DNA from: Dicyema japonicum | Lineage: Eukaryota; Dicyemida; Rhombozoa; Dicyemidae | Reading direction: 5' to 3' | Length of the DNA stretch: 64,000 nt | Assembly: GCA_011109175.1 (NCBI GenBank) | Contig: RDEW01000037.1 | Span: forward strand, 518,842 to 582,841 | Shown: positions 11,390 through 40,335 of the stretch, one piece after another | Layout: each line of letters starts with the position of its first letter | How positions within the stretch are numbered: the first letter of the stretch is position 1 | Made by a program: the position numbers and the translations under genes | The notes under the pieces: model-generated | Databases searched by the model: none | Told to the model about the DNA's origin: nothing | The model's input: the letters and a program-made list of their open reading frames with translations, nothing else

Positions 11390-12552
11390 TTAAAAAATAG
11401 GAAAATATTCCATTGGTCTTATTATATTTCGGCATTTTATGACAAATGTGATGACTCCAATTATTGTAAGTGTTAGAACAGATAGCATAATTCCTATAAT
11501 TATAAAATTTTTTGAATGATTAGAATTTGTATTTTTTCCTTCTTCAAAACACTCCGACTCTAAAATTCAGGAAAAATCAAACCTTTTCCAGTATAATGGG
11601 ATTTAAATTCACTCCGAATAATTTGTACCTTAAATGATAAAAACTCAGCATATATGTCATCAGAAAATTTAGTGAGAGACAATTCGAAGTTACAGGAATA
11701 TCCAACATCAATCAATTTGCTCTTATTAGGACTCCAAGACCCATTATAGATTTCATTGATGACTATCTGAATATTGGAGATATAATATTTGTTTTGAGAC
11801 AAAATAAATGTAAAAAGTATTTCTAAATTTCCCCTTTTAAAAGATAACTCAGCACCATTGTTATCAAAATTAATCATCGAATCCATATTCTCAAAAAAAA
11901 CTAAGAAAGCATCAATCTAATATTAAAATATGCAATTTACCATTTTAACACTGTGATTATAAAAAAATGTGATTTTAAAATACCCACTTAATATTCCTTT
12001 CAGTCGATTTTCCGCAAAAAAATACCAATATCGAACATTTGGGTCGTTAGATGGATCACAGTCATGTGCTGAATTAAATTATATCAAACCTTTTCCAATT
12101 AAATGTGGATTTGATTGTTTAATGTAATGTTTTAACACCAAAGAATATAATGTGAGAGTATTACCATTCTCAAAATTTACGGACATAAATCCGCATCTGT
12201 AATAATCTCCATGTTTAATATTTGTAAGATTTGTTGTATTTGTGTAGGTTTTATTATCTTTGAGTGTTAACTATTAAATACTAGAATTTAATTCTATTTT
12301 TATTGAGATGTTGTAAAATTTGTCTGTGAATTCAATAAAAAAATGGTAGATCAAGTTTTTTATTTTGACTGTAATTGGCATTTCATCATAAGACTGGAAA
12401 GAAATAATTTCAGTTGAATAATTGTTTTTCTACCATTATTATTTATAAAATACATTTGTAAGTGTACTTTTCAATAAACTTTTTACATATACTGACATTC
12501 GATGATTAAAGTCTAAATTCGTGATTGAGGACAAAAATATTAACAACAACAT
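11390..12552 (-). CDS. LAMP-like lysosomal membrane glycoprotein, six exons
   Basis: Joining exons 12454-12552, 12282-12393, 12090-12257, 11994-12068, 11583-11900 and 11390-11559 gives 942 nt, a clean 313-codon frame. Introns are 60, 24, 21, 93 and 23 nt, mostly with clear GT..AG ends. The protein has a signal peptide (MLLLIFLSSITNLDF), a luminal region with several N-glycosylation sites, paired cysteines and a GYSCNFELSLT-like strand, a membrane span at about 276-298, and a short tail ending MEYFPIF. YFPI fits the tyrosine-based lysosomal sorting signal of LAMPs. Family assignment rests on architecture and spaced motifs, not on strong identity. No frame break is visible. Confidence 0.7.
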
Positions 12553-12894
12553 AATTATGTAAAATGAACACGTCGATGTGTATAATTTAGGTCACTTGTT
12601 ATATTAATGAATTTTTTTTTAATAATTTCAAACAAATGATATTTATTTTAATTTTATAATTATATTTATTTTCATGAATTCATTAATCAAGAAACTTTTA
12701 TTTATTCTGCAATGTTAACCGTTTTTAAGAATTTCATGGTATTTTATCGTAATCCACCATAAGTCATTCTGTTTTGTAGGAATCTTTAATGATCGAAAGA
12801 AAATTTAATCAGCGATATTCGTAAAATATCAAAATAACTATTTTATTACACAATCGAATAAATATTTGTTGTCAATTGACTTAATTATATTATT

Positions 12895-13530
12895 ATAAAG
12901 CACAACGTCTTGTCATTGGAAATGACAAAACCAGTGCAGTACCAAACATTAATTTTTTAGTTAATTTTCTCCACTTTCCAAATCCTGAGCCAAATCCCTC
13001 AAGTAATCCATATCACCAGCTATAAATAGGAGTGCGGAGTCGGCCAATTCTAAATATAAATCAGATAAATCTGAGTAGAAGTCATCAAATAGAACCGGAT
13101 TTTTGTTAATCCAACCACTGTGAGGTGCGTATACATTGATATTGGAGACAATGTCAGTGCTTGCTTTGGCATTCATAAACTTCATTTGTAGAACTCCGAT
13201 GCGGTCATTAACTGCCCATACTCTGTAGTTATGGGGGAGAAATTCCATTTTGATGGCAAAACCCAGTCCATAGTGCCTGTTGACAGTCGGGAGAAAGATC
13301 AATTTGAATTTACCACATGTTTCTTCGTGGTTATCTTGGATTTTGGTTTCCTGTAGGCAACCGATTGCGACATCGTAATTATGTAGGTCTTGACAGAGGG
13401 AGGTCTTTTTCCAAGAAGAGGTTAGGCCTCGGACGTTGAATGAGAGCAGCGAGAATTTCTCCAAAAGATAAGGTTTGTACTTTTCAGACATGTTAATACT
13501 TTATTAGTGCCACGTCACCATCTCAACTAA
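12895..13530 (-). mobile_element. LINE-A internal-deletion derivative
   Basis: The minus strand starts with the LINE-A 5' signature (GTTGAGATGGTGACGTGG), then an APE N-terminal half: LLSFNVRGLTSSWKK, QETK, GLGFAIK, NVYAPHSG, LLFIAGD. The frame then jumps straight to DYLRDLAQDLES, which corresponds to the extreme C-terminus of the RT protein in the full copy. The 3' end resembles that of the copy at 51460-53555. So both ends are kept and the middle, about 2.5 kb, is missing. The ORF of 176 codons is open (12961-13491). Confidence 0.75.
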
Positions 13531-13784
13531 AAAATTGACTTAATGTGTCTTTTAATTGAAAACGTATTTCTTTTAAATCGTCAGGAAAAATGGGATCTCA
13601 ATTTTGAGACTGTCTACTACTTTTTAACTGTTTGTTTTTTGTATTAAAACGATTTCATTAAAAAAATATTAATTCTAGGAGAATATTCATCATCTAAAAT
13701 TGAATGTTTTCATAAACTTATTTTATTGAAATTATACAATTTTATTAATTTAACAGCCCTTTCGGAAGAAGTATGTATTGTTTC

Positions 13785-13966
13785 CATAAATTAAACCTCA
13801 CCTTAGGCAAAAGGCACACTTTATTTTAGAGTAATACCAGTAATGTTAATTAATTAAAAGCATATCTAAGACATTGAAAAATTAATTGATTTTTTTCTTG
13901 TTTGTGAGAACCAGAAAAGAATTCAGTTCCGCAGTGATGATATGTTTGCTAATAACGGCGTTNCGC
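13785..13966 (-). repeat. SINE-1 degraded copy
   Basis: GGCACACTTTATTTTAGAG, the AT-rich middle, then TTCCGCAGTGATGATATG and ATAACGGCG follow the same order as the SINE at 21950-22258. It stops before the tRNA-like head. The one ambiguous base (N, 13963) lies at its edge. Confidence 0.5.
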
Positions 13967-14165
13967 TCTGTTCTGCGTTATAAAATTAAAGCTCGACTCG
14001 GAGATTTTTGTTTATGTCTTCAACTCCACAATACTTCCTGGAATGTTATATGGTTTAGAAGGATAATCTTATTAGAGGTTTCGTAAACCGCATTAAAGTA
14101 TCTGTTACTAATCTTCAGAGGCGACCCTGTGTTTAGAGAGTTTTTTGGAACTTCCCCCATCACTT
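13967..14165. repeat. Duplicated block, copy 1
   Basis: TCTGTTCTGCGTTATAAAAT through to ACTTCCCCCATCACTTAATT recurs at 15716-16070. The second copy holds about 145 extra bases (15817-15960). The plus-strand reading RYKIKARLGDFCLCLQLH is open in both copies, but I do not recognise it. Confidence 0.75.
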
Positions 14166-14194
14166 AATTTCCAGTGTTTAAATTAATTAAAATA

Positions 14195-14515
14195 AAATTG
14201 GTTGAGGTGGTGACGACGCCTTTATTGCACTATATTTTATTCATATTCCTTACCGATTTCTCCGTTCACTCTGGGATCTTTTAATTTCAAGGAACTTAAA
14301 CAACCTTGCAAGAAACACCAACTGGTATGCGATCTAACAAAATACGACGTCTCTGTCTGCTGTCTACAAGAGACAGGATCTTTTAATTTCAAGGAACTTA
14401 AACAACCTTGCAAGAAACACCAACTGGTATGCGATCTAACAAAATACGACGTCTCTGTCTGCTGTCTACAAGAGACAAAAACGACCGGTCTACAAGAGAC
14501 GAAACTTAACTAATT
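14195..14515 (+). mobile_element. LINE-A 5' fragment with in-frame 102-bp duplication
   Basis: It begins with the LINE-A 5' signature TTGGTTGAGGTGGTGACG, then the APE start KKHQLVCDLTKYDVSVCCLQ. The unit 14274-14375 (34 codons) is repeated at 14376-14477, so the QET box occurs twice. It is opposite in orientation to the LINE-A piece that follows. Confidence 0.75.
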
Positions 14516-14519
14516 TTAT

Positions 14520-15570
14520 GTTTTCTCGGGAGTGATTTTAGTGCAACTATCCTTCTTCCCTGTCCGGTAATGAAGTTTGCAATCCAAATTTTTAATTTGT
14601 CTGAACTGTCTGCTTGCCCAGAGTAGACATGAGGTTATTCCATACTCTCTTGCTTCTTGGTGTAGTTTCTGATCTCCTTCTCCAAAGCACGAATGCCCAT
14701 TCTCACTATTAAACTAGTGTGGTATCAAGGGTCTTGAAGTTAGCCGTGTTGAAACCATATAAATAATATTCGACCAACTCAACAAACTTTCACCATTCGA
14801 CTTTTATGTAGTCAGTGAATAATATGGGCTTTCTTTCAGAAGAAACTCTTCATATATTCGACCAACTCAACAAACTTTCACCATTCGACTTTTATGTAGT
14901 CAGTGAATAATATGGGCTTTCTTTCAGAGGAAACTCTTCATTTAAGCGGGATAAGTATTGTGTTGTGGTCACTTCTGAAATTGTAATGCATCATCCAATT
15001 GGTTAGTAGGGCAATGTTCTGGAAGCAATTGTAAGGTTCGGAAAGGACGTCCTGTCGTTAAGGAGTTTTTTATTCAATAGTTGGTTGTTTAAAAACATTA
15101 GGTTATCCAAATTCGATGATATTTGGTCACCCCTGGTATCTTTTAACTGATCCTTGAATCAATCTGATTGTAAATCCTCGCATGGCCCCTGATTCATTTC
15201 TTCTGCAGCTCGTCCAGGTAGTCTTATGTTTTGCAGCATGCGCAAACGCAGTGTTACACAGGAATAGACCAAATGCCCGGCAGAAATTTATCAGCAGAGG
15301 CCGCGGCAGGTTCCTGATCTCTCTTCCGTATCTTCCGATAGTCGACTTATGTTCCCGACATACTTCTGCTTTAGCATTCTAGTCTCCGGCAATGAACACT
15401 AGAAAAGACGATTCCAGTTCGGCATATGTTCTCGACACCTGCATGTAGAAAGCTTCAAGTTCGTCCGAATCTTTGGCGACCCGTCCACTGTTGGGTGCCT
15501 AAACATTTATAATTGAGATAAGTGCCCTCGATGTGCGTTTGACCCCAACCCGTATTCTGTTCAGATATAT
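14520..15570 (-). pseudogene. LINE-A endonuclease fragment (decayed)
   Basis: The minus strand reads FIAGD*NAKAEV, RYGREIRNLPRPLLINFC, LCNTAF, KTTWTSCRRN and SDHNTILIPL, in the order of the APE second half in the full-length LINE-A. The catalytic SDH is kept. An 88-bp direct repeat (units offset 88 bp, about 14765 and 14853) lies in the following linker. Stops and frame changes are present. Confidence 0.7.
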
Positions 15571-15715
15571 GTAAAAAGTTATAAGTGACGTAAAATAGGT
15601 TGTTGAATTTAACTTTTTTTTAGTTGCACATGAGAAGTCTGATCTGGTGAGGATAACTGGATGCAGGAGGCTGGCTAACCTAAAAAACTCGTTGCAATAC
15701 AAACGCTACGAACGA

Positions 15716-16108
15716 TCTGTTCTGCGTTATAAAATTAAAGCTCGAGTCGGAGACCTTTGTTTATGTCTTCAACTCCACAAAACTTACTGGAATGTTATAT
15801 AGTTTAGAAGGATAATACGACTCGAAAAGGAAAGACATAATTTTAAAGAAATTTTAGAAAACGCGTAATTTTTCTCTATAGCTTGCTTTCGGAATAAGTC
15901 TCGTATGCAATTCCCCTATGGTTGGAAGGAAAAATGTTGAAGGTTGGCGGAAATATCGAAAATCTTATTCGAGGTTTCGTAAATCGCATTAAAGTATCTG
16001 TTACTAATCTTCAGAGACGACCCTGTGTTTAGAGAGTTCTTGAGAACTTCCCCCATCACTTAATTTCCAGAGTTCTTGAGAACTTCCCCCATCACTTAAT
16101 TTTCAGGT
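15716..16108. repeat. Duplicated block, copy 2, with a short tandem repeat
   Basis: Second copy of 13967-14165 with an internal extra segment. Near its end AGAGTTCTTGAGAACTTCCC is repeated about 36-38 bp apart. Confidence 0.75.
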
Positions 16109-16114
16109 TTCTTC

Positions 16115-16535
16115 TGTTGAGCAGACGGATTGCAGTGAACATTTTTGATGAGGCTTTTAACTGTTCAACTTCTGCAGCTCTTAGATCAAGTAGGTTAGTG
16201 GCGTGCTTCTTATTCAAAATCTTTATGGTTTTCTGGGTGGATCTTTTTCTAGACTTCAAGATTTGTTTCCTGTCCGGATCATACGTATTTTCCAGTTGTA
16301 ATCTTAGTTCCTTTGTTCTTTAATGAGGGCGGGAACATCTGGATGTATACATTTTTTAAACAGTGCTGGGGACAGGTTCCGATACTCCCATTTGCTGCCG
16401 AGAGGATGCCTTTCATTGTCTCCTCCCAGGCGCCTCTTGGAGGAAATCCGGGATCCAGGTTTCTGAAAAATTTCGTAGTTGATATTTGGTAGTTGTCTCT
16501 GATCGATGTAGAGTAACACAGTTGTTCCATTTTAT
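16115..16535 (-). pseudogene. LINE-A APE-RT linker fragment
   Basis: The frame has AWEETMKGILSAANGSIG followed by a basic stretch. It aligns with LWDEIVVAIQNTAFSVLG, the spacer after the endonuclease of the full-length LINE-A copy. It is truncated on both sides. Confidence 0.5.
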
Positions 16536-16744
16536 AGCTTCTTCTTACATCTACGTTTGGCTCTCTTCTTATTAGAATATAATTATTATTTTATTTAAAC
16601 ATGTGATTTTTGTGTTGCTATTGATATGGTCAAATTGAGTTAGTTTATATTGTTTAAAAATTATATCTAAATAAAAAGAAAATGTTCATCTTTTAAAGTA
16701 GCAAAAATTATTAAGAAAAGAGTTTTTAATTATATTTGATAATA

Positions 16745-16983
16745 ACTACGTAGGCTCGTCAGCATAAAAAAGTAACAAGGGATTGCAAGAAAAAACAAAT
16801 TAAAAAGTCACATCACCAAAGGATCCAGGAGTTCCTGCACGATTTCCCGCCAAAATTAAATTTTGGAGGAAGCACGTGTAGAAAAACAAAGACTCGCTCT
16901 TGTGAAAGATCAGCAAAATGAGGAAAAGAAAAAGAAAAAGAAAATGAAAACAATCGATTTTTCCAAAGATTCTTTCTGTGATT
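16745..16983 (+). CDS. Nucleostemin/GNL3-like basic N-terminal block
   Basis: The plus strand gives a lysine-rich run (RQHKKVTRDCKKKQIKK), then SPKDPGVPARFPAK, then EEARVEKQRLALVKDQQNEE and a second lysine run before a stop. Order and the KDPGVP motif match the basic and coiled-coil N-terminus of nucleolar GTPase GNL3. Two one-base losses, both in A-rich runs, are needed to keep one frame. No GTPase domain follows in the next kilobases, so this is either a gene fragment or a short exon of an incomplete model. Confidence 0.45.
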
Positions 16984-17634
16984 AAATTTAGTTTTTTTAA
17001 ATAAATTCTTTAAATTGTAATTATTTGTTAAAAAATATTATTATTAAAAAATTATTTTTTCATTCTAAATAAATAATTTATTATCAATAATATTTTTTCG
17101 TGCGTTTTTTGAAATTTCTTATTTGATAGATGACATCCGTTGAGTTATCATGGTTTCGAAAAATGCTTTATATTTTGAGCTAGCTTTATTGCAAATATTG
17201 TTATTAGTTTCATTGATAGAATAGGTAGATACTTTATTATTAAAAGAAATAGATCGCAATGGATACAGAATTCAGAGGATTAATATCAAGGTTGATTGGT
17301 GTCAAATTTCAAGGTCAAAATGTAACACGATAGAATGTGTAACACGGATGGCTCGCGACACTTTGCTTGCAAATGATTGCAGTTGGACTGATTGTTTTAG
17401 CTTCAGTGGGATTCCTGGCAAAGATTTTACTTTGATTTATTATTGCAAAAATCGGAAGGTCACCAGTAATTAGTAAGGATTTATTTCTTTCTTTGTTTCC
17501 TAATAATACTAGACTTAATTTTAGAAATGTATGTGATATTAATTATACTATAATCAATAATCATTCATAATAGCATCTTTATCGGTCGATAATTATAAAT
17601 ACTTAATCAATTTCTATTTTTTACAAAGAAACGA

Positions 17635-17880
17635 ATGTTTCAAATGTACGTACAGTTTTTGTTTGTAAATATTGAATTTTATTCAATTTTAATAAAACGA
17701 TCTGTTCGATCCATTGAAAAATTGATGCATCGCTTTATAAATAGTGGTGCAAGGGGTCAATATTTTCGAGGAAAAGACATCTTGTGTCCCATTATAGTCG
17801 ACCCCAACAGCCCACAAACTGACTTTACTTTCGGATCCTCTTTCTTTTTTTGGCGGCTTAATCTTTTCTCTTTAAATTAG
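17635..17880 (+). CDS. Hypothetical ORF
   Basis: An 81-codon frame with KRSVRSIEKLMHRFINSG and a hydrophobic end. No family recognised. It could be a terminal exon; low certainty. Confidence 0.25.
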   Translation: MFQMYVQFLFVNIEFYSILIKRSVRSIEKLMHRFINSGARGQYFRGKDILCPIIVDPNSPQTDFTFGSSFFFWRLNLFSLN

Positions 17881-17987
17881 TAACGAGTTTGTTTTTGGAT
17901 AATAAACTATTCTATCTATCTAGTTTTTTAATATTAATTTCCAAAACTTTATTGCATAACTTTTCATTTATATTTTTTGGCTTCTCA

Positions 17988-19440
17988 TTAAACGTGAAAA
18001 AGAAAAATATTAAACAAAATTTGTTTAAATGAAGAATTGCTCAAATCATTTACAACTTTACGTTTTTTCAATGGTTCATCTACTATGTACCACCTCCCTC
18101 TCTTTTTTACGACTTTCAATATAAAAATAAATTCTAGAGCAAACTTATTTGTGATATATTTGCCAATAATGTAATTGTCTTGCATTTTTTAGGCTTTTCT
18201 ATAATTTCTCTAGCGGGTGGCTCGAGGGACTCTTCCCTCTTGTTTAGAATCTACAGAAAATTTACAAAATAATATTTACTTCTTTAAGGGGTCTACAAAA
18301 AACTGAACAATTATCAATCCGAGCAGTTTCCTTAATATATTAAAATTAAAAAAAACTAAACCAAAGGACACGCATTCTTATCGACTTTTACTCGTTCTAA
18401 ACGATCGAGTACATTAGCTCCTCCAACGAGTCTAGAAATAAGTATATAATTAAGGTACCTTCCAAATACTGTATGTTTTCTATCCAGATATTCCAAATTT
18501 TTAAAAGTAATAAAACTAAAAAGTCAATAATCAAAAACTATAGGGTAAAATAACAGACACACGATATGTCCTATAACTTACAATTGTGACTGATTACTGT
18601 CTCGTTCAGCATTGGCCATAGATAGCAACCCTCGGCAATCATGTTTAACCAAACTCCTAAATTCATCAATAAATGGGTTTCAAAAACTCTGAACGACTTC
18701 CATCTCCATTAGGATCTCCCCCTTGGATCTGATTACACTAAAACTTTCAAAACCGAACCATAAAATTGGGAAAAGTCTATGGAACGGACAACCATCGTAA
18801 TATCCTTGTTGACACAAAAGTATGAAATTTCTACAGGCTCGAGGAAACTTTTAAAATAAAGACAAGTTAATAAAATACCAGATCACAGTATAAAAATTGA
18901 GATCACCAAAATTAGTTGAAGACGTACATACCCTTTTGCATCTTTCTTTAAAGTATTGTACAGAAACTCTTGTTCATCGATGAGGACTACAACATTCGTT
19001 ATGAAACAAATATGCCTATTTCTTGTGAGGTTTGAATATCCACAGCAGTTGATGTAAATGATGCTGCTATTCTGCTAGTCGTATAATTTGTCGAGTTAAG
19101 ACAATCTGGCTTTGGTGTGTTGATGACAGATTTGGCCTCTGTTGATTGTTCGTCATATTTCTTATAAAGTTCTGTAAGCACAGTTTGAGTAATGCTAATT
19201 AATTTGCGTAAATTCGTTTGATTATCTTTTTTTGTGAATGAAGAATCAACTATGTCGCAGTAAATTAATATTCTCTTACTTGAAGCGGCGTAGTCTGTCA
19301 GATTGTTTCGAATATGGTGAAAATTGGCAAAATTGTGTTTATCAAGATTGGAAGGGTCTTGAATATGAATCACATCTTTCCGAGTGAATGATTCATCTGT
19401 AAGAAGATCGATATGCTTGATTTGGGATGGCGCCTACCCT
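17988..19440 (-). CDS. PPIL2: PPIL2-like U-box cyclophilin (peptidyl-prolyl isomerase), multi-exon
   Basis: Minus-strand exons read, in order: DLLTDESFTRKDVIHIQDP, then SNLDKHNFANFHH, ASFTSTA, KGYVRLQ, FPRACRNFILLCQQGYYDG, FHRLFPNFM, IQGGDPNGDGS, GLLSMANAERDSNQSQFFIT, LDRKHTVFGRLVGG and ETARIDNCSVF. This is the linker plus cyclophilin domain of PPIL2, a spliceosome-associated, ubiquitin-ligase-type cyclophilin. Introns placed: 18848-18878 (31 nt), 18729-18758 (30), 18516-18581 (66), 18432-18458 (27), 18331-18361 (31), 18251-18279 (29). Three one-base differences (near 18645, 18915 and 18205) break the frame and may be consensus errors. The U-box exon was not found; it should lie above 19440. 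Confidence 0.85.
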
Positions 19441-20589: not shown

Positions 20590-21905
20590 ATAGTAACCTG
20601 TTTAGTCTGTCCCAATCTGTCAAAACGATCACACATTTGATCCACCACGGCAAGATTCCTTCCAAATACCCCCAAACGATAACCAATACAAGTCCATTAG
20701 AAATCTAAATTGAGCCCTTAAAACCAGCCTTCGTCGATAGAAGCATAATCTCTAATGAACCACCATTACCCTAACGTTATCACCACGTGTAAAGTCATGT
20801 ATATATTCTGCCGTGAAAGACTGTATAGTTGACTATGAAGTAACAAAACAGAATATTTAGTGATTTATGTCTTTCTGCAACAAAATGTAGAATCTTAACT
20901 CACTGAGAGACCTCAATACTAATATGACCCTATAAATAACCATTAGAGTTTTCTTCAATAGTGTGACGATCTCCCCTAGCTAATCCTGACCCTACAATCA
21001 TACCTTAGTAGTGTTCATTGACTCTTTGTCCTACAATAGTTAACATAGACTATACCATATAGTCCCACATGTCGACAACATTGTTGGAGACGAAGGAAGG
21101 ACATCAATAAATGGGAATTATTAACGCTAGATCTACCACATTAGAGTAAATATACTTAAATCTATGATATAAAAGTCGTTCTTGTGGGATAAATCGATAA
21201 AATGATTACAGAATACTTTAGAAGGGAGACTAATGGCTGTACTTAAACCTTCTTAGGACAAACTTACTAACAAACAAGTCAAACAAAAGTTTAGCAGTAA
21301 CGGAGGCCCACTAACACACTTACTCCAAAAGTAGTGGTTATTGTCAGGAGCAATCCTTAAGAATGACACGAGCGAGTAAGGTCATCAAATCTGTTCTGTA
21401 TAGGATTGCCAGTAATAGTCCATTTTGAGTGAGAAGATAGACAGTACAGTCTTAGTAATCACAGAGCGTCTATTTTTGATAACATATGTTCATCAATGAT
21501 AATTATTAGAGTTAATATTAAGCGTGTCAGTCCTAACGATCCCATAGATAGTCAATACTAAACGTTACCACCAACCCCACTATATATTATTACTCTAGTG
21601 ACCCTCTTTAATTACCCCTATGAGATACTATCACTCTAAGATTACTAAATCTAGCAATCTCTCGCTTCCATTGGTTAAATATTGATAACGGGCATATTAT
21701 CAAGTTTTTGCCTCCCATTAGTAGAAATAGGCAATTATAGTCACTCTTCCTCCATTTCATCCAACCCAACGTCAATAAAACTATCCTCATTACAACTTAA
21801 TCCCATTATACTTTATTGTTGCTCTAGTCCTATGATAATTCTTTTTCTACTTTATTATTTTCTTTATATATTCTCTGTAATCAATTGTTGTTTATTTATT
21901 AAATT
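20590..21905 (-). CDS. SNF2-family ATPase, HLTF/RAD5-like, multi-exon
   Basis: Helicase motifs occur in order on the minus strand: NLIICPLSIFNQWKREIARF (Ia), IIIDE.HMLSK (II, DEAH-like), LKWTITGNPIQNRFDDL (III), SLVSFLRIAPDNNHYFW, FVLRRFKY, LRLQQCCRHV, LLSTKAGFKG (V), and DQMCDRFDRLGQTKQV (VI). The HRLGQ-type motif VI and the wide spacing fit HLTF/RAD5 or related remodellers that act in DNA-damage tolerance. The Walker A exon is not clear: MGLS then a splice. Short introns separate the blocks. No RING finger was seen, so TTF2 or RAD16 type cannot be excluded. Confidence 0.72.
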
Positions 21906-21944
21906 TGTTTTACTTTGGCTAACCTATATTTTAATTAAAAAAAC

Positions 21945-23669: not shown

Positions 23670-24986
23670 TTATTTTTTATTATTTAAAAGCACTACCGAG
23701 CAGTCATAAAATTTATCAAGCCTCCCTTGTGCCGTATTTCTAGCCATCCTCTCTATCAGCCTTTTCCAGGACCCTCTACTTCGTGCCAGTTCCCTTAAGG
23801 TATCTAGGTCGTCTGCGGAAGTGAGCTTCAGTCCCACAGCCGACAGGTCTCCATTCAAAATAGTTGGGAGTGTGACTCTTGGTCTTCCACGGAAACCGGC
23901 TCCCGTATGCATTAGGTAGTTTTCCATGGCGATATTCGCGGGTACTTGAGCATTTAGACGTAAGATATGTCCAAAGAGACTCCATCTTGATCTGAAGATC
24001 TCCTCGGATAGTATACCAGATTTGCACTTCGAGTAGAGGTCATTGTTTGAGATCTTCTTAGGCCACTTGATCTTGATTACTGATTTCAATTGTGTCCTGT
24101 GGAAAGCGTCAAGACGGTCCATCTCTTGTTTAGAGATTCCCCAAGTGCCTGAATTGTAGGTCAGGACGGGGATGACAAAAGCCTTATATATTCTGAGTTT
24201 GGTGTTTAATCCCATCCTCTTCTTATGACCCCACATATTCGATACTTTCTTTAGTGCACACATTGCGAGGATTTTCCTCCGAGAAACATCTTCTGAGTCC
24301 CCGAGAAGCGAACCCACCTTCTTTTGCTTTCTCCAAGACTCGTCCGATCTTCGATCATTGCGTGTAAGTGTTGTGAACTCTGTTTTATCGGTGTTAACGG
24401 TTAAGAACCATTTCGAGAATACGTGTGGAAGAACGTTAAGCATGTGTTGAAGTACTTGAATATCCTCAGAAACAAAGTCCAGGTCGTCCGCGTAGATTAT
24501 CTCGTTATAATTGTTGCCAACCAGGGGTCTGAACTCTCTTAGTGCGGCCTCAAGGTAGACAATAAAGAGGACCGGGGATAGTGAGTCCCCCTGTGGAACT
24601 CCACGTGAGGTCGAAAAAAAGTTAGAGGTAGAGTCACCAATTTTGACGGCAAGTTGAGTGTTCCGCATGAGTAAGTGTATTATTTTGACATCGTCAGGCA
24701 GTAGAAAACTCTCCAACACTTCCATAAGTTTTCCACGGTCCACCGAGTCGAACGCACGGGACATGTCGATACCAAGTATCTCAATAGATTTTTTGTATTT
24801 TTGGCACAGGGCACAATACCACCTGTGCCCCCATACCACGTCAGCCGTGGACCTGCCCGTCCGGAATCCACTTTGGCCGTCCGAAAGAAATATGTTCACC
24901 CTCTCCTTTATTCGGTTTAAAGCAATGAGGGATAATGTTTTTCGTATGGAGGTTAGGAGTATAATAGGTCTGAAGTTGTGAGGGGG
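23670..24986 (-). CDS. LINE-A reverse transcriptase and C-terminus
   Basis: Continues from the endonuclease frame after one missing base. It has SGFRTGRSTADVVWG, IDMSRAFDSVD (catalytic Asp), RGVPQGDSLSPVLF and IIYADDLDFV (catalytic Asp pair), then a thumb and a C-terminal region with WSLFGHILRLN, RGRPRVTLPTIL and LDTLRELARSRGSWK. The open part from the first Met is 409 codons. The clade is uncertain. Confidence 0.9.
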   Translation of the reverse strand, partial: PPHNFRPIILLTSIRKTLSLIALNRIKERVNIFLSDGQSGFRTGRSTADVVWGHRWYCALCQKYKKSIEILGIDMSRAFDSVDRGKLMEVLESFLLPDDVKIIHLLMRNTQLAVKIGDSTSNFFSTSRGVPQGDSLSPVLFIVYLEAALREFRPLVGNNYNEIIYADDLDFVSEDIQVLQHMLNVLPHVFSKWFLTVNTDKTEFTTLTRNDRRSDESWRKQKKVGSLLGDSEDVSRRKILAMCALKKVSNMWGHKKRMGLNTKLRIYKAFVIPVLTYNSGTWGISKQEMDRLDAFHRTQLKSVIKIKWPKKISNNDLYSKCKSGILSEEIFRSRWSLFGHILRLNAQVPANIAMENYLMHTGAGFRGRPRVTLPTILNGDLSAVGLKLTSADDLDTLRELARSRGSWKRLIERMARNTAQGRLDKFYDCSVVLLNNKK

Positions 24987-26653
24987 CCTTTACTTTTTCC
25001 CGGTTTTTGTAGTGGAATTAGCCACCCTTTTCCCAGTTCCAGTTCATCTGCACCCTCGAGAGACCGGTTGAAAATGTTAGTAATCATTTCAATTAGCTCC
25101 TCCGGGCCGTATTGTAAAAGTTCTGCAGTAATGAAGTCTGGTCCGGCAGATCTTCCGGTATTTAATTTTTTAATAGCTTGTTGAGTTTCGGATATGGTAA
25201 TAGGGCTAGTTAGAGTGTACTTGTAAGACTTCCGAGATTTCATTGCTTGGTCAGCCGCGTCCTGTTTGTTGAACATAAGGTCAAAATGGGATGCCAGAAC
25301 GTTTGCTTTGTTAATGGTCCCGATAACGTCGTGACCAAGGTTGTCATGGACAGTTAACGAAATTGGACAGTTTTCTCTGCTAAGAAGCCGGATTGCTTTG
25401 AACATTCTTGGTCCGTTCTTGTACTTTAATATGTCTGAGATTTTCTCCTCAGCTTCATTTTTGGCAAGGAATCTTTGTATTTGTTTGATCTTCGTTAAGA
25501 CTCTCCCTCTCTGGGTGCGCAGTACTTTGATATCTTCCGGAGCGTTTGTGTTTTCCATCCGGAGTCTGAGCTCTTTCTGTGTTACAGAGAGTTGTCCGAT
25601 ATCCGGATTACATTGTTTGTGACGAGATTTGGTGATGTGACCAAGCACACTAAAGGCTGTGTTTTGGATAGCAACCACTATTTCATCCCATAAGCTGTTT
25701 GTCGGCTGATTTTGGTTAATACTGTTGATGCTATCTCTCAGAACTGCACTATAACGACATTTGGTGGATTCTTCGTAGCGTAACCTCTCAGTGTCGAAAC
25801 GTACTGAGGTAAGGCCTTTGTGTTTCCCGTGTATTCCATGGATTCTTTTAAGTACTAGCCGGGCGACCACAAGTTTATGATCGCTACTTGTTTCAAGTCC
25901 ACCGTAAGATCTCGAGTCCTGTAGGAGGGCCTTCTGATGTTGCTTGCAGATAATATAGTCGATCTGATTGTATATATTGACTGTGTTTCCAGATTTGCCT
26001 TTTCTGGTACCAACCCACGTGGTCCTGTGTCTTGCCGGGTGCTTGAAACAAGTGTTGCATATGAGTAGGTTGAATGCCGTGCAAAATTGTATTAATGCCT
26101 CTCCGGGGATGTTACGGCGGTTTCTACCGTGGGATCCAATACACGTTTCACCAGGTCTTGCTTTTCCGGCCCTGGCGTTCCAGTCCCCGGCGATAAAAAG
26201 AAAGTAAGAGGATGAAAGTGAGTTGTACACACTTGTGAGAGTAGAGTAAAACGTATCCAGTTCTTCGATATTCGTTGATACACGTGCTCCGGTTGGGGCA
26301 TATACGTTTATGATGGAGATCACTGAGTTGAGTTTGTTTCCGCATTTGATTTGTAACACCGCGACACGGTCAGATACTGCCCATACTCTTGAGACACAGT
26401 GAAATAAGTGCCGATGAACAGCAAATCCGAGCCCATAGTGCCTGCAGTCTGGTGTGAGGGTCAAAAGGTAAAAATTCTGAAACAGTTCTGCAGATTGTTC
26501 GGTTATTTTCGTCTCTTGCAAACAACAGACAGAGATGTTGTATTTACTCAGATCACGCGCCAATTGTTGTTTCTTGCAGCACTGATTGAGGCCTCGGCAG
26601 TTGAGGGATCCAAGAGTGAGGGGAGAAACTGGTAAGCAATACGAAGAAGACAT
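24953..26653 (-). CDS. LINE-A APE endonuclease and RT N-terminus
   Basis: The 566-codon frame begins with the APE domain: LGSLNCRGLN (Asn18), QETK (46-49), NVYAPT (117-121), GDWNARAG (156-163), IDYI (231-234), SDHKLV (257-262). All catalytic positions are present. It ends in an RT lead-in, AGPDFITAELL and LIPLQKPGKSKG. The frame is lost just after this at the C homopolymer. It nicks target DNA and starts reverse transcription. Confidence 0.9.
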   Translation of the reverse strand: MSSSYCLPVSPLTLGSLNCRGLNQCCKKQQLARDLSKYNISVCCLQETKITEQSAELFQNFYLLTLTPDCRHYGLGFAVHRHLFHCVSRVWAVSDRVAVLQIKCGNKLNSVISIINVYAPTGARVSTNIEELDTFYSTLTSVYNSLSSSYFLFIAGDWNARAGKARPGETCIGSHGRNRRNIPGEALIQFCTAFNLLICNTCFKHPARHRTTWVGTRKGKSGNTVNIYNQIDYIICKQHQKALLQDSRSYGGLETSSDHKLVVARLVLKRIHGIHGKHKGLTSVRFDTERLRYEESTKCRYSAVLRDSINSINQNQPTNSLWDEIVVAIQNTAFSVLGHITKSRHKQCNPDIGQLSVTQKELRLRMENTNAPEDIKVLRTQRGRVLTKIKQIQRFLAKNEAEEKISDILKYKNGPRMFKAIRLLSRENCPISLTVHDNLGHDVIGTINKANVLASHFDLMFNKQDAADQAMKSRKSYKYTLTSPITISETQQAIKKLNTGRSAGPDFITAELLQYGPEELIEMITNIFNRSLEGADELELGKGWLIPLQKPGKSKGPLTTSDLLYS

Positions 26654-26699
26654 AGTGCAAGTAGAGGGACGTCACCACCTCAACCAAAAAAATTGCTGA

Positions 26700-30792: not shown

Positions 30793-30844
30793 GATAAAAG
30801 AAATCGATTTTTTGATTTTTCATATAGTTAACATCAATTTTGGA

Positions 30845-31734: not shown

Positions 31735-32064
31735 TTAATTAGTTGTCCCGACATCATTAACATGTGGGAGACCGGTTCCCATCAAACGTCTATTTGATAG
31801 TGTTGGGCGCTCCCACATTCCCTTAATGAGAGTAGTGGTCCAGATCGGGGAACGGATTTGATTTATAATATCACAAAGCAAGTGACGGGAGTCAAATCTC
31901 AGATCCATTACAGAGAAAAGATTCTTAATTGACAAATAAATTTCAAACCTGTAACTCCATGTCAAGAGGATTCTACACTCTCTACCTGAATTCTCTATTG
32001 ACATGGACGCCGGCCATGCTCGTGAGGCCTGGAGCCGCTTTTCTGTTAAATTTAATTTTTTCAA
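31735..32064 (-). CDS. Hypothetical ORF
   Basis: A 109-codon frame without a recognised domain. The composition is moderately protein-like (FSVMDLRFDSRHLLCDII). It could be part of an old element. Confidence 0.3.
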   Translation of the reverse strand: MKKLNLTEKRLQASRAWPASMSIENSGRECRILLTWSYRFEIYLSIKNLFSVMDLRFDSRHLLCDIINQIRSPIWTTTLIKGMWERPTLSNRRLMGTGLPHVNDVGTTN

Positions 32065-32394
32065 TAAAAATTTCAGAAATGTTCATTTTTTGAGAAAACT
32101 GCCTTGAACGGAATAGAAGGAATTCCATGGAATTGCCTCTTCCTAAACAAACTCTTTTGCCCCACGTCAGCTGTTATTACATGCGAAAATAAATAAACAA
32201 TTAAAAATAAAAACATTTATACTTTAATACATTTTTAGAATTGATTTAAAAATTTTAGTGATTCAGTTTGATTACTGAACATCATAAACAAAAAAAGTTA
32301 TATTTTCATATATTGGAACAAAAAGGGTACACTCCCAGAAATAATCCTGCATTTACTAACAAGCAAACTATTTGGTTGTGCCTGTTTTCTACAA

Positions 32395-32945
32395 GTGTCG
32401 GGAGTTTTCTCAACTAGTAGGTGACCGACATGAAAATTAAATGATAAGATCACCTAATTAGTTAATAGCTCTTTCGAGTATCCCTAAATGGGTTCTGTTT
32501 GAGCCACGCTTTACAATCATCCTCTTTGCCATCCTCGCCCACGACATCTTGTTTCTGGCCCTCATTCGAACATCATCCAGGTCGTCTACTGTCACCAATT
32601 TACGACTGATTGTATCGTAATCATCTTATAAGCAAATTGGAAGTGTATTTCTTGGTCTGCCTCGAAATCCGTGACTTTCGGAGCAGTAGAAGTATTCTTC
32701 CATTATTCTGTTACACGTCGTAGTCAGGTCAAGTTTAAGAATATGTCCAAATAGTTGCCATCTCGATAGAATAACGTCCATGCTAATGGTATAGATTTAC
32801 ATAGAGCATATAGTTTTTCGTTAGAGATTTTTCTAGGGAACAGAAAATTCCAGTCAGTATGCGCAGTTGGCTTCTGTGGAAAGTGTCTAGCCTCTCTAAA
32901 TCGTTTTTCGAGGTTCTCCATGTTCCGGAATTGTACATCAGTATT
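32395..32945 (-). mobile_element. LINE-A 3' fragment
   Basis: The minus strand shows the C-terminal region: FLFPRKISNEKLYALCKS, GFRGRPRNTLPICL and LDDVRMRARNKMSWARMAK, matching the last 120 or so residues of the full LINE-A protein. After it comes TAATTAGGTGATC and a matching GGTCACCT, a hairpin 3' end. It abuts a plus-strand tail at 32944. Confidence 0.8.
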
Positions 32946-33005
32946 GGGTCACCTAATTAGCTTTGATTTTTCTTAGATATCAATAAAATAAATAATAAAA
33001 TAAAG
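32944..33005 (+). repeat. LINE-type 3' tail, opposite strand to its neighbour
   Basis: GGGTCACCTAATTAGC.., TTTTTCTTAGATATC and then AATAAAATAAATAATAAAAT resemble the shared 3' end in the plus orientation. The matching 5' body is absent. Confidence 0.5.
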
Positions 33006-33049
33006 TTAAGAAGTCATATAATCCACAAGGCAAATGCACAGTGCTGACA

Positions 33050-36000
33050 AATTTATGACAAAATCTTGGTTCTTTGCAATATCACCTTCGGAATAAGCCA
33101 AGACAAATACTCTGAAATATAAAAGTATTACAACACGTTGGAGTCCAAGGAGTTATCGATGATAAGTACCATCGCCATTTAAATAAGATTGTCTGGATTC
33201 AAGATAATCTAAAAATATAAAATTCATCAAACTTGTAATTCTGAAAAATACTTAAAGACGTCGAAAGACAGTTACTTCTTGCAAATTTTCGAATAAGGAA
33301 CTTGAAAAGTCTCTCCACGTGCACGACCCTAAAACTCATCTTTGGTAAATGCGCAATCACTCATTTACATAGAGTGGAAGTGAATACAACAAATGTTTCA
33401 CATTCCGGCGTAGTGGTCATCTACACTACCCCGCAAACCTACACTATCACAGAGTTTGTTCACGTAGGGTTATAGAAAACCATCTCCCACGTGGTTTTCT
33501 GATACCAGAGAAGCGCAAATTGCTGAATCGTCTTACAATATGAACTCCTACATTAGCACAAAATCAATACACGACGTATCAATTCCTTCGGTGGAACAAA
33601 GTCATCGAAGGATCGGGCTTTGGTAAAAGAGTCCATATTGATATCATCGAAAGTATAATCATAGGAAAGGCATAACTAAGGTTGATTTGGGAATAGGCAC
33701 GTGTATATATTGATCTATGATTTATACTTGAACTGCGACTGCTCACTAGTCTCAAGTCTTAAAATACAGAAAACAGAAGCACTCGATGTATCCGATAACG
33801 ACGAAGGGACCATGGACAAAGAGATCGTATAGATTTTGGGGACTTCATAAGAATCTCTAATGTTATTGCAACACCTGCCACAGTGAACTCGTCTAGCATT
33901 AAAATCATCAACTCACTGCAGTGAAACCCCATCTTTTCTGGTCACCTCTTCCAAAAAGTTGCTTAGCTCACATATCAGGAAATACGGATTAATAGAAGAC
34001 AATTCACAAAAGATCCAAGGCTTTCGGCAAATCGGTGTTTTTGACAAATCGACTGTTTTACAATCCTATGAGATAATTCCACTATATCTATTTGTCCATC
34101 AGCTCACAGCATTGATCTAATATTTATTAAGTGGGGGTACCATAGTAATCGACAAAGAACATGGAATCGTAAGAAACTATAAATAAACAAACGAGTCTGT
34201 TGTTATTGATGGTATATTCGAACATGATAAGGCAAGACACTCCAAATTGCATACAAAAAGATGGAATTCGTTTCATCACATACAGTTCGACTGCTTTCCG
34301 GTGACTCCTTACTAAGGAATGAGCATAAGATATAGCCTTACTCAAAAATATGGATCTTTTTCAGTCCAAACTGAAAAGATACTTCGAAATGTCCAGTTTG
34401 AGTCGACTGATAAAATATTTTAGTCCGGAAGGGTGGAAGTTAGAGTTGTGCTCTGAACTCACAATCTTGGAGTCGCTTTTTCTGGTAACCCAAATGATTT
34501 ACTGTTTATCTACGTGAGGACATGCAAACAACAATTTTCGAGGTTGACTGAGAATCCAGGGACGTGCGAGAACTGCTAGGGTTATCGAAACACATTTATG
34601 GGGATGAAGACATGATAATTTTAAGAGTTCTTGTTAATTCTGCAAACATCGTTATCGTCTTGTTTGCACCTGCAACGGTGCACTTTATCAGCACAACAAG
34701 AGATTTAAAGACTTCAATGATATGTACGGTACTTTCGTTGTATAGTTTGTGGCTTTAGCGGTGTTGACTGTAAATGCTATCAAAAATGTCAAATGCTCCG
34801 AAATGTAGCGGAATGTGTCGACACAAAGACAAAGACATCCTTGGCATATCTGGGAGTTATTCCTTGCGCTAAACTTATTTCTAACGAAAATTTTAGCCAA
34901 TCAACCACATCGTGAACTCTTCTGGGCAGGATGTAATCAATGTTGTGTTTACTACGGTCAGAGTCCAAATAAGTCTAATCCATCATTACATTATACATTG
35001 ATTTCTCACTATTGTTGGTAAGGACATTATAAGGGTCACAACCAGAAATCTCTCTCGAAAATGCAGAGGAGCGGAATTAATATTCTGAGAACTCCCGTCT
35101 ACAATGAGGTTAAGGATAACTAAATGAAGGAGCTTCACAAAAGAGAAAAAATTCGAAGATTGTGTCTAAAATACTGAGGATGATTACCTCTATCATTGCA
35201 GTCCACAAAGACGTCGTAAAACTTCTATTCAGTCATTTGCTTAAGATTTTTATATCATGAAATCCTCAGAGTATTTACTCGGGGATCTGCAGGTATCCTG
35301 ATCCAGCTTACATTGAAAATGGAGATCCTTAGTTTGCCCAAAATAGAAATACCTCTGAAATGCATGATTTTCCAAATAGGTGTAAAAGTAGTCGAGGTCG
35401 TTAGGGGGTGGAATTATAATTTGACCGATTCTGCGAGATCCACGGAAATCTTATAAATACCATGTTGAAAGCCTTTTTGAAGTATATTTGAAGAAATATT
35501 AGAGGATATATGAATAAAAATTTGACAGGATGTGGAGGATGCCAATATTGAAGCTTATTTTGGGGAGATTCAGACTTCGAATAAACTGGGATGAAGAATG
35601 CATAATTACAAATAAGTGATCTTTAAAGATTGAAGAATATAAATTGGTCAAATTCCATGTTGAGAAATTTAAAAAATTGAATATAAATTCTTTCCTGCCT
35701 AAATTCAAAATCAACGTGAATCCCTGTAATTTCATTTTGTAGAAGTTTACTATTAAATATTTCTCAATGATTTCCACATTCTGTTCGTAGTGAGTGTTCT
35801 TTACGGTGAAGAAATCAGGTTTCATTTCGTGAAAACACAAAGAAAATCTAAATGTCATGGAGAATAACTGTTTCACTGATAAGGAGCAATGTTCTTGAGT
35901 TCCTCGTATCCTGGCTTTAACTCACTCTGAGGGATACCTTTGTGTCCTTTGATGGAATCGAATACAAGAGCTCATTACAAAACCGTATTCTAGCCAGTAA

Positions 36001-38455
36001 GCAATGTTGCTAGGTAAACGCACATAACTTGAATCGTCTCACAAGTTCAATCATCTTTGTTCATATCTTTAGCTGACAGGTTACTGATTGGAGTTCACTG
36101 GGAGTAAGCATTTATGTACTTAAAATATAAATATACGATAATATTCGCCCATATAACAAAAATAAGATGTACGACCTTACATTATCGTATAAGCAGTCTG
36201 AGAAATGATGGGAAACTAGAAACCTGCAAGAGATTGACGACTCTTCCATTTTTTGGCTTAATTTGACTTTCTGGAATAATCCAAACAGACTCTTATGTCT
36301 AAACAGGTACATATTAAATGACCTGAGAGACAGTAATAATGTAATTCATTGCTGCTTAGAGATCCACAAAAAAGGCTAATAAGTATAAAAACAACTGTTC
36401 CCCTCTGGTAAACATTTCAACTTGAGTACATCTGAAGGTCTGGTTTATCCTTACTTGTTTCAGTTTTTTGAGGTTAATAGAAGAGGAAAACCTTCTGTAA
36501 CAGCTCCATTCCATAGTCATGCTCACAGACGATGTTTAAAGAAATAGTCTTGAACTGACAGTTCGTCTTTCTGCTTGTAAGCCATATAGCTCAGAACTGG
36601 CCGGTTTATTACCTGAAAGTGGCATTAGATCGTCTCGTCTCTCAGCGGCTAGTTGACTACTTTTACTTTTAAGACAACCTATTTTTCAAGGTACATCGGT
36701 TTGTTACAAATATCCATCGGAAAACCCTTAAAAATGGGAAAACTTAGTTTAACTAAAATCAACTAATTTTGAACTCCTCACTTTTTTAAATTAGAAGACT
36801 AATGTCGAATTCTTCCACCAAGAAATATTCCTCGCTGGAAAAAGGAGCTCACAAAGGGATCTTAATTAATCAAGACGACATCAGAAGGTAAAGAACCTGT
36901 CGAATTGTCTCAATTATGTCTACTGCGAGACAATACAAAAGTATTTTAGTTGCATGAACAGTGAAAATGTACTCGGTTCCTTCGACTCGATCAACTGGCT
37001 ATTAGTATGATTTCTTACATCTGATTCAAAAGAATTGACCTTTTTGAAATATTTTTTAATCAGCGCGTCAAGGCTGGATTCTCTTAACATGGGAACTAAA
37101 CTCTGAACTTTGAATGCGGAAATCGTTATTAGCCTTCAGTGATCTGAAATAACCGACATTCTCAACCTTTTATTGAATTTGAAGACCTCCTCATCGACTA
37201 AAAATTTGAAAAATACATGCAGCATTAGATAACTGTACGAAAAAAACTTTCTCAGAACCTTCTGAGACATGGTTAGCAAAAACTACTTCAAATCCATTCC
37301 AAACATACAGTGGTAGCACTCCTGCATGGCAAAAGTAATATCGGAGTTGCTAACCACACTGTTCTCAGAGAGGGTTAAATACTGTTCTTCACATGTTATC
37401 TAGAAAATACCTTAAATATACACTTTGATGTATTCGTCAACTATTTTTTGGATATAACCAAATCCCTGAATGAAATTCTGATATAAAAAGATCCAATTGG
37501 AGTAAAACAAAAATCGGGACCATATAGGATTTAAAAACAAATAATTTCAAATCATCAAAGGATGCCGGCAAAATACAAAAGCACCACGTTGTCTCCTTTA
37601 GCGTATACGGAAAGCACTACCAAATCGCAAGAACAGAATCGTCAATCGGTAAAACTACAATTCAAACATTAGTATTTAGAGAAGATTGCTTTTTTAGAAT
37701 ATTTGTGACTTCCAGTGACTTTCTTTCGAAATTTCAATTTCTGCTAGGAATTACGTCTTCATATATTCTATCAAAGCTTCAAGGAAAGCTGCGTTATTTT
37801 TGTTGTCGGCTACAAAAATGGATAATTACGACCTGAAAACCAACTCGACACAGTCATTTTCCAGAATCAGGTGAATTATAAGCACGTGGGAAATATTATG
37901 TATGGAGTCGCCAATATTGTTGTGTGCTTGAACTCCCAAAACATAGGAAGACTCTTTTCTGCAAAATCAATACAAATATGCAAATGTTCGTGGCACTGAC
38001 AAAAATTAAGGAGGTAGACTGTGAGCAAACAAATAAAGTACTCAGAATCACATTTATAAATCCACAACTGAGCCATAGTAATACATCCTTCTCAACGTCA
38101 TACTGTCCATGATCTCCTCAAATCGACTGTCCTCGATATATTTAGGTTCGATCCACAAATCTGTAATGATGTTGTGGTCTGTGAAGTCGCCACAAAGAGT
38201 ATACATTGTAACTAAATTTTCGCTCATTTTGAACAGGTCAATGTCCTCGTTTATCTACACTTGGCATTGTGGAGCCAACTAGTAGAAAACGTGTATCCCG
38301 TTATCCTTGAAAGAGTTTACAGTAAATCAGTCTTAGTTCTTTCCTTTTTTGCAAATAATAGGCACGTGTACCTAACATCTTCCCAAAGATGGTAGGACTG
38401 AAGGGAGTTATTATACTCATGCCAAAATTCCACTTCTATTTACATAAGAATCACA
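33050..38455 (-). CDS. Large intron-dense gene, unidentified (3' part)
   Basis: Protein-like blocks follow one another on the minus strand, split by very short introns. Placed examples: exon 38066-38254 (63 codons: EDIDLFKMSENLVTMYTL.., FEEIMDSMTLRRMYYYGS), then introns 38041-38065 (25 nt), 36995-37018 (24 nt, with GTAAGA, TACTAAT and CAG), 36590-36612 (23 nt), 35166-35187 and 35099-35120 (22 nt each) around exon 35121-35165. Other blocks: SLDALIKKYFKKVNSFES, ELKPGYEELKNIAPYQ, FHEMKPDFFTVKNTHYE, PPPNDLDYFYTYLENHAFQR, FYDVFVDCNDR, HNIDYILPRRVHDVVDWLKF. Some frame breaks remain unresolved. I cannot name the family. Confidence 0.6.
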
Positions 38456-38468
38456 TTACCTCATGATT

Positions 38469-38791
38469 TATTATTTATTAACCCCGGATACACCGAGAAA
38501 GAAGTTAAAGTAAACAACTAATTAAGTGTATCCAGTTTCCACTTCTACAGAGTCCATCCGGAATCAGCATATAGAGTAAGACGTCCATTACATGCAGTTG
38601 TGGAAACCCCTCCAGTGGAGTGGGGGAGAGCAAATGATCCTTTTTCATGCCGGCCTGGCACTGGGCGTCACCTAGACAGGTGGATCACATGACGCCACTC
38701 TATTAGGAAGAGAGAGAGAGGAATAGACAAGCAAGCAGAAAAATTAAACCAATTAACCACGCAACACCACATGGCGCCACGCGGCAAAAGT
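38469..38791 (-). repeat. SINE-2 with 10-bp target-site duplication
   Basis: CCTCATGATT occurs at 38459-38468 and 38792-38801 flanking the element, direct evidence of insertion. On the minus strand it begins near GCGTGGCGCCATGTGGTG and ends in the hairpin GGATACAC/GTGTATCC (plus 38486-38493 and 38526-38533) plus GGGGTTAATAAATAATAA. A near-identical copy lies at 45357. No clear tRNA B box is seen. The shared hairpin end suggests mobilisation by the resident LINE machinery. Confidence 0.85.
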
Positions 38792-38805
38792 CCTCATGAT
38801 TGAGT

Positions 38806-40335
38806 TCGATATAGGATATTCGTCTAAAAAGACATTTGTTCGTTCAATCTTAAAATATTTCAGGAATTGCTAACACAACAAGCACACAATCCAATGATCT
38901 GAAGGTGAAAATCCCGGCATCTATCTCTGTGAGGAAGTTTCTCAGGATAAGAACTGTCTCATCAATGGTCTGGAATAATAAAGTCCCAGACTTGATAAAA
39001 TATTTACAGTTTCACGTTGATTGTAAAATACAGGTTGAGCAGAATCGATAATTCCAATCACCTGACGTACTCCTTGGTTCTGGAAATAATTACAATTTCT
39101 GTGTACAATTCGCAAATAAGTTCTTTAATAAAGAAATCTTCGGCAGATTTAATTCAATTAGCAAGGGAATTGAACAATTTGGGCAGCTTTGTGTAAATAA
39201 TTTCTTAATTTTCAGCCAGAAAACAGAACTTAAAGTTATTCGTGCAGTACATGCTACAGTAAGGCTGTAAATTACCTGAGGTTCTCCAAATTATCGACAA
39301 TGTAGTCCCAGACAGGCTAAAATTATGATAAGTGGACTACTGTTGTACGACATCGTGTCGTGGAGGGTAGTTTCCCTGATTAGTTTTTAGATAATGAGAA
39401 CATGAAGTTGATTTGTTGATCTTAGAAATGATTGTGGTTACTAAAAGTCAAGTCGGAGTTGATCTTTGATGGAAAAACTCAGTTTCGTGAAGAAAAGAAT
39501 TCATTGAAATGAGTCAGTCAAAAACTGGTCGATGATGTATATTCAAAGTCATAACCATATCTGAGTTTATAGATACTACCAGGTGGTCATACTGTGCACG
39601 TGGATTATTAGCACTATTTAAATGATCTCATGGTACATGAACTTTATAAGAATGCATAGTTCGTATGTGTCTTCCATATGTGAGCCAATCAAACTCGTAT
39701 TTTGCCAATCCTGTTCAATCTGGATCCTCTCTGCTTCTAGTGAGAATAGATTCGAATAAAGTAATTTCAAATGCGTTCATCTTACAGCTTTGACTCACAC
39801 TAGTAAATAAATGTGGGACCAACTTGTCATATTTGGAGAGAAGCACTCGCCTAGGCTAGTGTGTGAATCATTTGAGGGATCTCTGGAGGTTGACGAGGGA
39901 CCACTTGTCATGAATCTATCGTAATAAACCATATAAACAACATCAAGGTCATAAAGTACAAATCAGCCTGTCTTTTCGGCGACGTAACAAAGAAATGAGT
40001 CACTTTGAATATCGAGCTGTTTTAGGTTATGAAAGATTAAAAGATCTTGGACTCTGTCAGAACATAGAACGTTTCATCCAGCTGAGCACACTCTCTGGGA
40101 CGATTTTACCGTCATTATGGAAATAAACATTATCGCGTCGAAAAATGGTTATAGTCTTCGACGTATTTTGATTTAGTTTTATTGAGAAAGGGCCTCGTTG
40201 ATGTAGTCTTCAAAGTAGAGATAATTCTTGTGTAGGGACTTTTTTCTAAAGTCATTGATCAGTCTCAAGGATCGCTCACAAAAGTTGTTCAGCTATTCTC
40301 GGTTAATATAAATCTCTGAATCTGCCAAACTGTAA
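38806..40335 (-). CDS. Large intron-dense gene, unidentified (5' part or separate gene)
   Basis: Blocks on the minus strand: LNNFCERSLRLINDFRKKSL and YLYFEDYINEAL (about 40175-40290), RRDNVYFHNDGKIVPESVLS (about 40060-40140), DRVQDLLIFHNLKQLDIQSD (about 39975-40055), and VWDYIVDNLENLR (about 39275-39316) after a 24-nt intron (39317-39340). Composition is clearly coding, but the frame changes between blocks, so exon borders are uncertain or there are indels. A SINE separates it from the 3' part. It may be the same gene. Confidence 0.5.

Follow-up and report, generated by a model that had tools for sequence, protein, structure and literature searches.

Protein-coding genes of Dicyema japonicum probably carry spliceosomal introns of about 23 nucleotides

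Several stretches of the genome of the dicyemid Dicyema japonicum read as continuous protein once very short GT..AG segments are taken out as introns, which raises the question of whether these segments are spliced introns or chance strings. We examined this question in a window of 64,000 nucleotides (nt), bases 518842-582841 of contig C123 (RDEW01000037.1, assembly GCA_011109175.1), where an earlier note had read a LAMP-like gene, a PPIL2 gene and a large gene in this way, and in the whole assembly, which comprises 64,672,829 bases in 191 contigs with few N runs in the sequence examined. The comparisons described here argue that protein-coding genes of this genome contain real spliced introns of about 23 nt, a reading to which we give a probability of about 0.9. 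More introns than expected by chance are found genome-wide and in the LAMP-like gene, no such excess being shown for the large gene. Judged from sequence, the proposal that genes carry spliceosomal introns of twenty-odd nt appears well supported at the scale of the genome and, within the window, for one gene.

The genome-wide evidence includes a test that uses no splice signal. For neighbouring exon matches on the same strand and less than 250 bases apart, the genomic gap minus three times the profile gap was taken as the excess spacing. The assembly contains 40 exon-sized matches to the chaperonin profile PF00118 and 24 to the cyclophilin profile PF00160. Among the 36 neighbouring pairs, the excess is 22-26 nt in 23 and 20-31 nt in 24, the remaining 12 being scattered between -56 and 69. 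A gene model seeded with uninformative starting values and trained on 25 regions (95.6 kb) called 146 GT..AG introns; 131 of these measure 20-30 nt, the commonest length being 23 nt (52 introns), whereas each of 16 control dinucleotide end pairs gave 84-158 introns, 20-60 of them in this class. A flat model, which has neither matrices nor a length preference, placed 69 of 108 GT..AG introns at 20-26 nt, compared with 14-21 of 62-98 for five control pairs (Fisher p 5e-17). The mean of the 197 model introns of 20-30 nt is 23.3 nt. An excess of in-frame stops in introns whose length is a multiple of three (45/58 versus 54/139) was set aside, because the model can hardly call a stop-free intron of such a length; a gene model allowing introns up to 160 nt was rejected for over-extended gene ends.

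The chaperonin genes illustrate the same pattern at the level of whole proteins. Protein-guided spliced alignment of CCT4, which is independent of the gene model, yields introns of 23, 21 and 22 nt and no frame break over ~500 codons. Five of the six joined chaperonin models were scanned against NCBIfam, and each gives a single match to its own family that spans almost the entire profile. Four of the five pass the curated cut-offs (CCT zeta, epsilon, gamma and GroEL), while CCT alpha reaches 773 of the 800.2 bits demanded. Together with CCT4, these five models contain 45 model introns, 43 of them measuring 21-25 nt and the other two 45 and 54 nt. Nearly all of the named entries among the 120 database matches listed for CCT4 come from animals, with identities of at most 51%; neither this list nor that for ATP synthase beta contains a close relative. 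The ATP synthase beta gene is read as a frame of 481 amino acids (aa) without introns.

The LAMP-like gene (11390..12552, minus strand), an orphan membrane-protein gene, is confirmed by sequence comparison as the window's good case of short introns, beyond chance. Its six exons encode 348 aa, and the frame is complete once five GT..AG introns are removed, at 12430..12453 (24 nt), 12258..12281 (24 nt), 12069..12089 (21 nt), 11917..11940 (24 nt) and 11560..11582 (23 nt), all on the minus strand. These lengths differ from the 21, 23, 24, 60 and 93 nt of the earlier reading, none being 60 or 93, and the coding sequence measures 1047 nt including the stop, not 942 nt. This structure follows the lenient gene-model call except for a 75-nt intron, which was removed manually, as the sequence in question is open in each of the five copies compared and aligns there as exon. 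The four paralogs, on C136, C189, C1 and C101 (L086-L089), were picked from those 41 of 63 match places whose matched exon is free of stops, and give frames of ~350 aa without internal stops after removal of the same introns.

Among the five copies, three indels change the frame, and each of them is intronic and belongs to the C101 copy: intron 1 is shortened by 1 base to 23 nt, intron 3 gains 14 bases to reach 35 nt, and intron 5 gains 1 base to reach 24 nt. As the introns make up 10% of the gene, the chance that all three would fall within introns is ~0.001. The only exonic gap in the five-copy alignment is 9 nt long, and a stretch near the end of the C189 copy, forced gapless by the alignment, is yet in frame. 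The pairwise ratio of nonsynonymous to synonymous divergence (dN/dS) is 0.75-1.13, and in each of the ten pairs the introns diverge less (0.017-0.078, over ~115 bases) than synonymous sites do (dS 0.045-0.164). The probability of finding no stop over 200 variable columns (2e-5) was set aside, since the copies were chosen for a stop-free main exon.

The 14 bases added to intron 3 of the C101 copy (L089) form a near-tandem repeat that stretches it from 21 nt. The LAMP-like protein is one member of an extensive orphan family, with at least 63 places in the assembly at an expectation value (E) <= 1e-3, some of which are pieces of one copy; 22 of the 63 have a stop inside the match, and many lie on C87, C23, C115, C1 and C148. 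No relative was found at E <= 0.001 among 1275 database candidates, and the Pfam Lamp2-like luminal domain scored 13.5-15.7 bits in all three members scanned (of five), below the cut-off of 27.2. The LAMP-like proteins may represent a fast-changing surface family.

The PPIL2 sequence of the window (18274..19409, minus strand) is a broken copy that corresponds to human residues 143 to 442. Its upstream exon matches PDB 7abi_t (E 2e-17), the U-box half is missing, with no convincing match in the window at E <= 10, and spliced alignment to human PPIL2 contains up to five frame breaks, one of which may be an intron with unusual ends. A second copy on C124, which retains the U-box half, shares six intron positions with matching exon edges, and at each of them the window copy bears a GT..AG segment, seen as an intron relic. 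On the minus strand these relics are 19250..19279 (30 nt; 23 nt in C124), 18848..18878 (31 nt; 21 nt), 18729..18758 (30 nt; 23 nt), 18516..18581 (66 nt; 23 nt), 18432..18458 (27 nt; 23 nt) and 18331..18361 (31 nt; 23 nt), so that the window introns are longer at all six comparable positions. The intron lengths first proposed here, 27, 29, 30, 31 and 31 nt plus one of 66 nt, come close to these values, but the continuous protein that they were to join is not obtained, because of the frame breaks and because the window lacks the U-box half. When the assembly was searched with a single 135-aa exon, no PPIL2 copies beyond these two emerged, and frame breaks are apparent in both; possible explanations are loss of this spliceosomal ubiquitin ligase or assembly error.

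The large gene looks like decayed sequence rather than a maintained gene. Part of it (37120..40437, minus strand) is apparently a decayed duplicate shared with C110 in four BLASTN blocks of 77-80% identity, and a fifth block of 49 nt at 86% lies just beyond the stretch. Over 2763 aligned bases of 40437-37120 the identity is 81%, with 48 gaps, 43 of which are not multiples of three. A further overlapping stretch (35897..39748, minus strand) is shared with C87 in five blocks of 72-77% DNA identity, and against both C110 and C87 the protein-level identity is alike in several frames. It is the many gaps out of multiples of three, together with the similar identity in several frames, that suggest decay. 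Introns of 22-25 nt had been read here, one of them with GTAAGA, an internal TACTAAT and CAG. This 24-nt string is present in the sequence (36995..37018, minus strand), outside the blocks matched in the stretches of C110 and C87 compared; no continuous large gene could be modelled, however, the lenient run giving scattered small pieces, and the shared stretch looks decayed.

Next, we looked at the anatomy of the short introns. An unsupervised motif search without any prior, applied to the model introns of 20-30 nt, recovered the motif NTNAYT, about two thirds of the weight placing its A at -7 or -8, and the information of the motif is 0.54 nats per intron compared with 0.16-0.19 in six decoy runs. 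In the flat-model introns, TNAY with its A at -6 to -10 occurs in 43 of 58, versus 18.1 +/- 3.4 in shuffled sequence (maximum 29 in 500). The chaperonin-set introns contain TNAY in 36 of 43, a count made without a control run, and in 21 of these 36 the branch-like A is intron nucleotide 16 or 17 (the one nearest to -7.5 if several). The candidate branch point, defined by sequence only, is thus the A of a yUnAy motif, complementary to U2, that lies mostly 7-8 nt from the 3' end, and hence ~16 nt from the donor. The donors are poor in the usual signals. G at +5 is present in 16% of the 197 model introns; in the chaperonin set it is present in 9 of 45, with GTRAGT in 2 of 45 and a mean of 4.5 matches to U1 out of 9. 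The weak complementarity to U1 tells against a standard donor, but not against the U2-type class to which these introns would belong.

Components of the major spliceosome were searched for in the assembly. For U1 small nuclear RNA (snRNA) there are eleven matches, all of them divergent and short of the gathering score (69.5 bits, the best match having 69.0). Of the six of these 11 matches that were read, five have the pairing site ACUUACCUG and one has ACUUACUUG. U2 snRNA has 25 matches, 22 of them over the gathering score, and the pairing site GUGUAGUAUC is present in all six copies read of the 25. In the copies read, U1 and U2 thus offer canonical sites for pairing. Exons of U2AF65 lie in order on C114 and cover residues 168-510 of the 510-position model, each exon being below the whole-protein cut-off, as expected. 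The ISY1 gene on C45 (L085) has a frame that reads ..AM before and ARNAEKARTILARW after an 18-nt GT..AG intron; this intron stands right after an ATG, a possible start codon; its length is divisible by three and it contains an in-frame stop. We infer that translation starts at the M before ARNAEKA. Human ISY1 likewise has ARNAEKA after its start methionine. CWC25, which lacks its glycine plug among the Stentor-type adapted branching factors, was sought with the Cir_N profile; this has no match in the assembly, a result that is uninformative, since the control also had no match anywhere.

Several points weigh against real introns of this length. The trained model at standard settings called none of the three window genes; what it did call was a single retrotransposon frame with a 38-nt gap bridged, and in a lenient run PPIL2 was represented by an 86-aa fragment and the LAMP-like gene by 217 aa. 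The gene model also adds false introns, such as those of 80-160 nt at gene ends and the one of 75 nt inside a LAMP exon, and its counts are inexact, with six introns in CCT4 as against three in the protein-guided alignment. At 23 nt, two of the control end pairs also show minor counts, of 11 and 10. The flat test was restricted to regions and strands with trained GT..AG genes and used the same codon scores, which favours GT..AG; the neutral-seeded test with 16 controls is free of that bias. Since the trained acceptor matrix includes positions -7 to -3, it could have strengthened the signal of an A at -7. The LAMP paralogs were drawn from matches whose main exon had no stop, and the C124 copy of PPIL2, which serves as the short-intron reference, is itself interrupted in its later part by up to four frame breaks. 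Finally, no dicyemid record appears among the 120 matches listed, either for CCT4 or for ATP synthase beta.

These points bear on three other explanations. If chance GT..AG strings merely bridged the frame breaks of decayed sequence, the window would hold few real short introns, as the condition of the large gene, the broken PPIL2 copy and the missed standard-settings calls could all suggest. We consider this improbable for the window, where the LAMP-like gene holds in five copies and the PPIL2 relics fall at the intron positions of the second copy, while as a general account it is excluded by the genome-wide tests (excess spacing, end-pair controls and NCBIfam). Indel errors of the assembly could likewise mimic tiny introns and gene breakage, and the frame breaks in both PPIL2 copies are in line with that. 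Such errors would not produce segments whose lengths peak sharply at 23 nt and which have GT..AG ends and contain a branch-like motif, and the unbroken CCT4 frame and the nearly full-length profile matches of five other chaperonin models make this source very improbable. Even less probable is the excision of the segments from DNA rather than RNA, in the manner of the internal eliminated sequences of ciliates. The segments are indeed short and uniform in length, and many circular contigs were reported from a Dicyema assembly (PMC6543705), but GT..AG ends, a yUnAy motif near the 3' end and the presence of U1, U2 and U2AF65 speak for splicing.

The introns are most likely of U2-type, and the ordinary major spliceosome probably removes them through lariats with a ~16-nt loop. 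Human constructs are reported to need ~45-47 nt between donor and branch point for spliceosome assembly (PMC11291888), which suggests that assembly here would take a different route, in which splice sites are probably paired by exon definition. Catalysis through a 16-nt loop is plausible, since the branch A of Stentor sits at nucleotide 10. The U1 step may be brief or weak, with the donor passed early to U6/U5. Selection may hold the introns short, as the greater length at all six comparable positions of the broken PPIL2 copy would suggest. A fuller and more tentative version, which we regard as somewhat unlikely in all its parts together, is that U1 and U2 never sit together on one intron; that donors are paired across the exon and handed over early to U6/U5; that U1 complementarity has decayed to little beyond GT; that selection fixes ~23 nt because both the lariat loop (~16 nt) and the distance to the 3' end (7-8 nt) depend on this length; and that dying copies lose this control and their introns grow. 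An animal in which introns are spliced over ~16 nt, from weak donors and with canonical snRNA sites, would mean that the ~45-nt limit reflects the assembly route and not catalysis, and would open that route to experiment. On the practical side, a gene finder whose minimum intron is set larger will overlook or split genes in genomes of this kind, and decayed sequence bridged by short GT..AG strings can pass for a gene.

That dicyemid introns are about this short, as the earlier note said, is already published (PMC2222250, PMC6543705), and the phenomenon is not new, because reports on D. acuticephalum, Dicyema sp. and D. japonicum preceded this analysis. D. acuticephalum has 16 introns of 26.2 +/- 1.9 nt (Aruga et al. 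2007, PMC2222250); a Dicyema sp. genome of 2019, which cites Ogino et al. 2010, has a median intron of 27 nt (PMC6543705); and the D. japonicum assembly of Lu et al. 2019 (67.5 Mb, 36.7% GC, 4.1% gaps, 377 scaffolds) has a mean of 38.2 nt (PMC6736024). As in our data, these are introns in the 20s of nt with a narrow length range in an animal. Our mode of 23 and mean of 23.3 nt, taken within the 20-30 nt class, are lower than 26.2, the median of 27 and the mean of 38.2, the measures being different ones. The intron-free 481-aa frame also has its counterpart in the ATP synthase beta of D. acuticephalum, reported as intronless (PMC2222250). Orthonectid introns have a median of 57 nt (PMC6543705), and those of Kudoa a mean of 82; of the animals covered by the accounts consulted, dicyemids alone have introns this short. 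In the published accounts, mostly open literature, we found no branch-point geometry, donor profile or gene-copy comparison for dicyemids.

Two other systems are comparable. Stentor coeruleus, with introns of 15-16 nt, likewise has conserved snRNA pairing sites, a retained U2AF and a nearly fixed branch point (PMC9505925). The branch A is nucleotide 10 of 15 in Stentor (PMC9505925) and mostly nucleotide 16-17 here, and the branch consensus is not strong there, whereas yUnAy is clear here. The N-terminus of ISY1 is reported as non-conserved in Stentor (PMC9505925), while our reading has a methionine followed by ARNAEKA, so the Stentor-type change is not encountered. The nucleomorph of Bigelowiella natans has introns of 18-21 nt, of the same size class and also narrow in range (cited in PMC2222250), but it is a reduced algal nucleus, whereas the host here is an animal.

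The window also contains other features. Pfam scanning of ten window pieces gave three matches: an SNF2-related one that stays below its cut-off, one to LAMP that is likewise sub-threshold, and one at chance level. An SNF2-type helicase fragment lies at 21608-21796 (minus strand; E 7e-5, below the cut-off), with only small model pieces around it. Non-long-terminal-repeat retrotransposon frames with reverse transcriptase and endonuclease occupy 23670-26671, 8841-10376 and 12961-13500 (minus strand), with a PHD finger beside one of them; the endonuclease at 12961-13500 is below its cut-off, and the retrotransposon scan matched five of ten open reading frames. The GC content of the window ranges from 29.6 to 43.9% in 2-kb bins.

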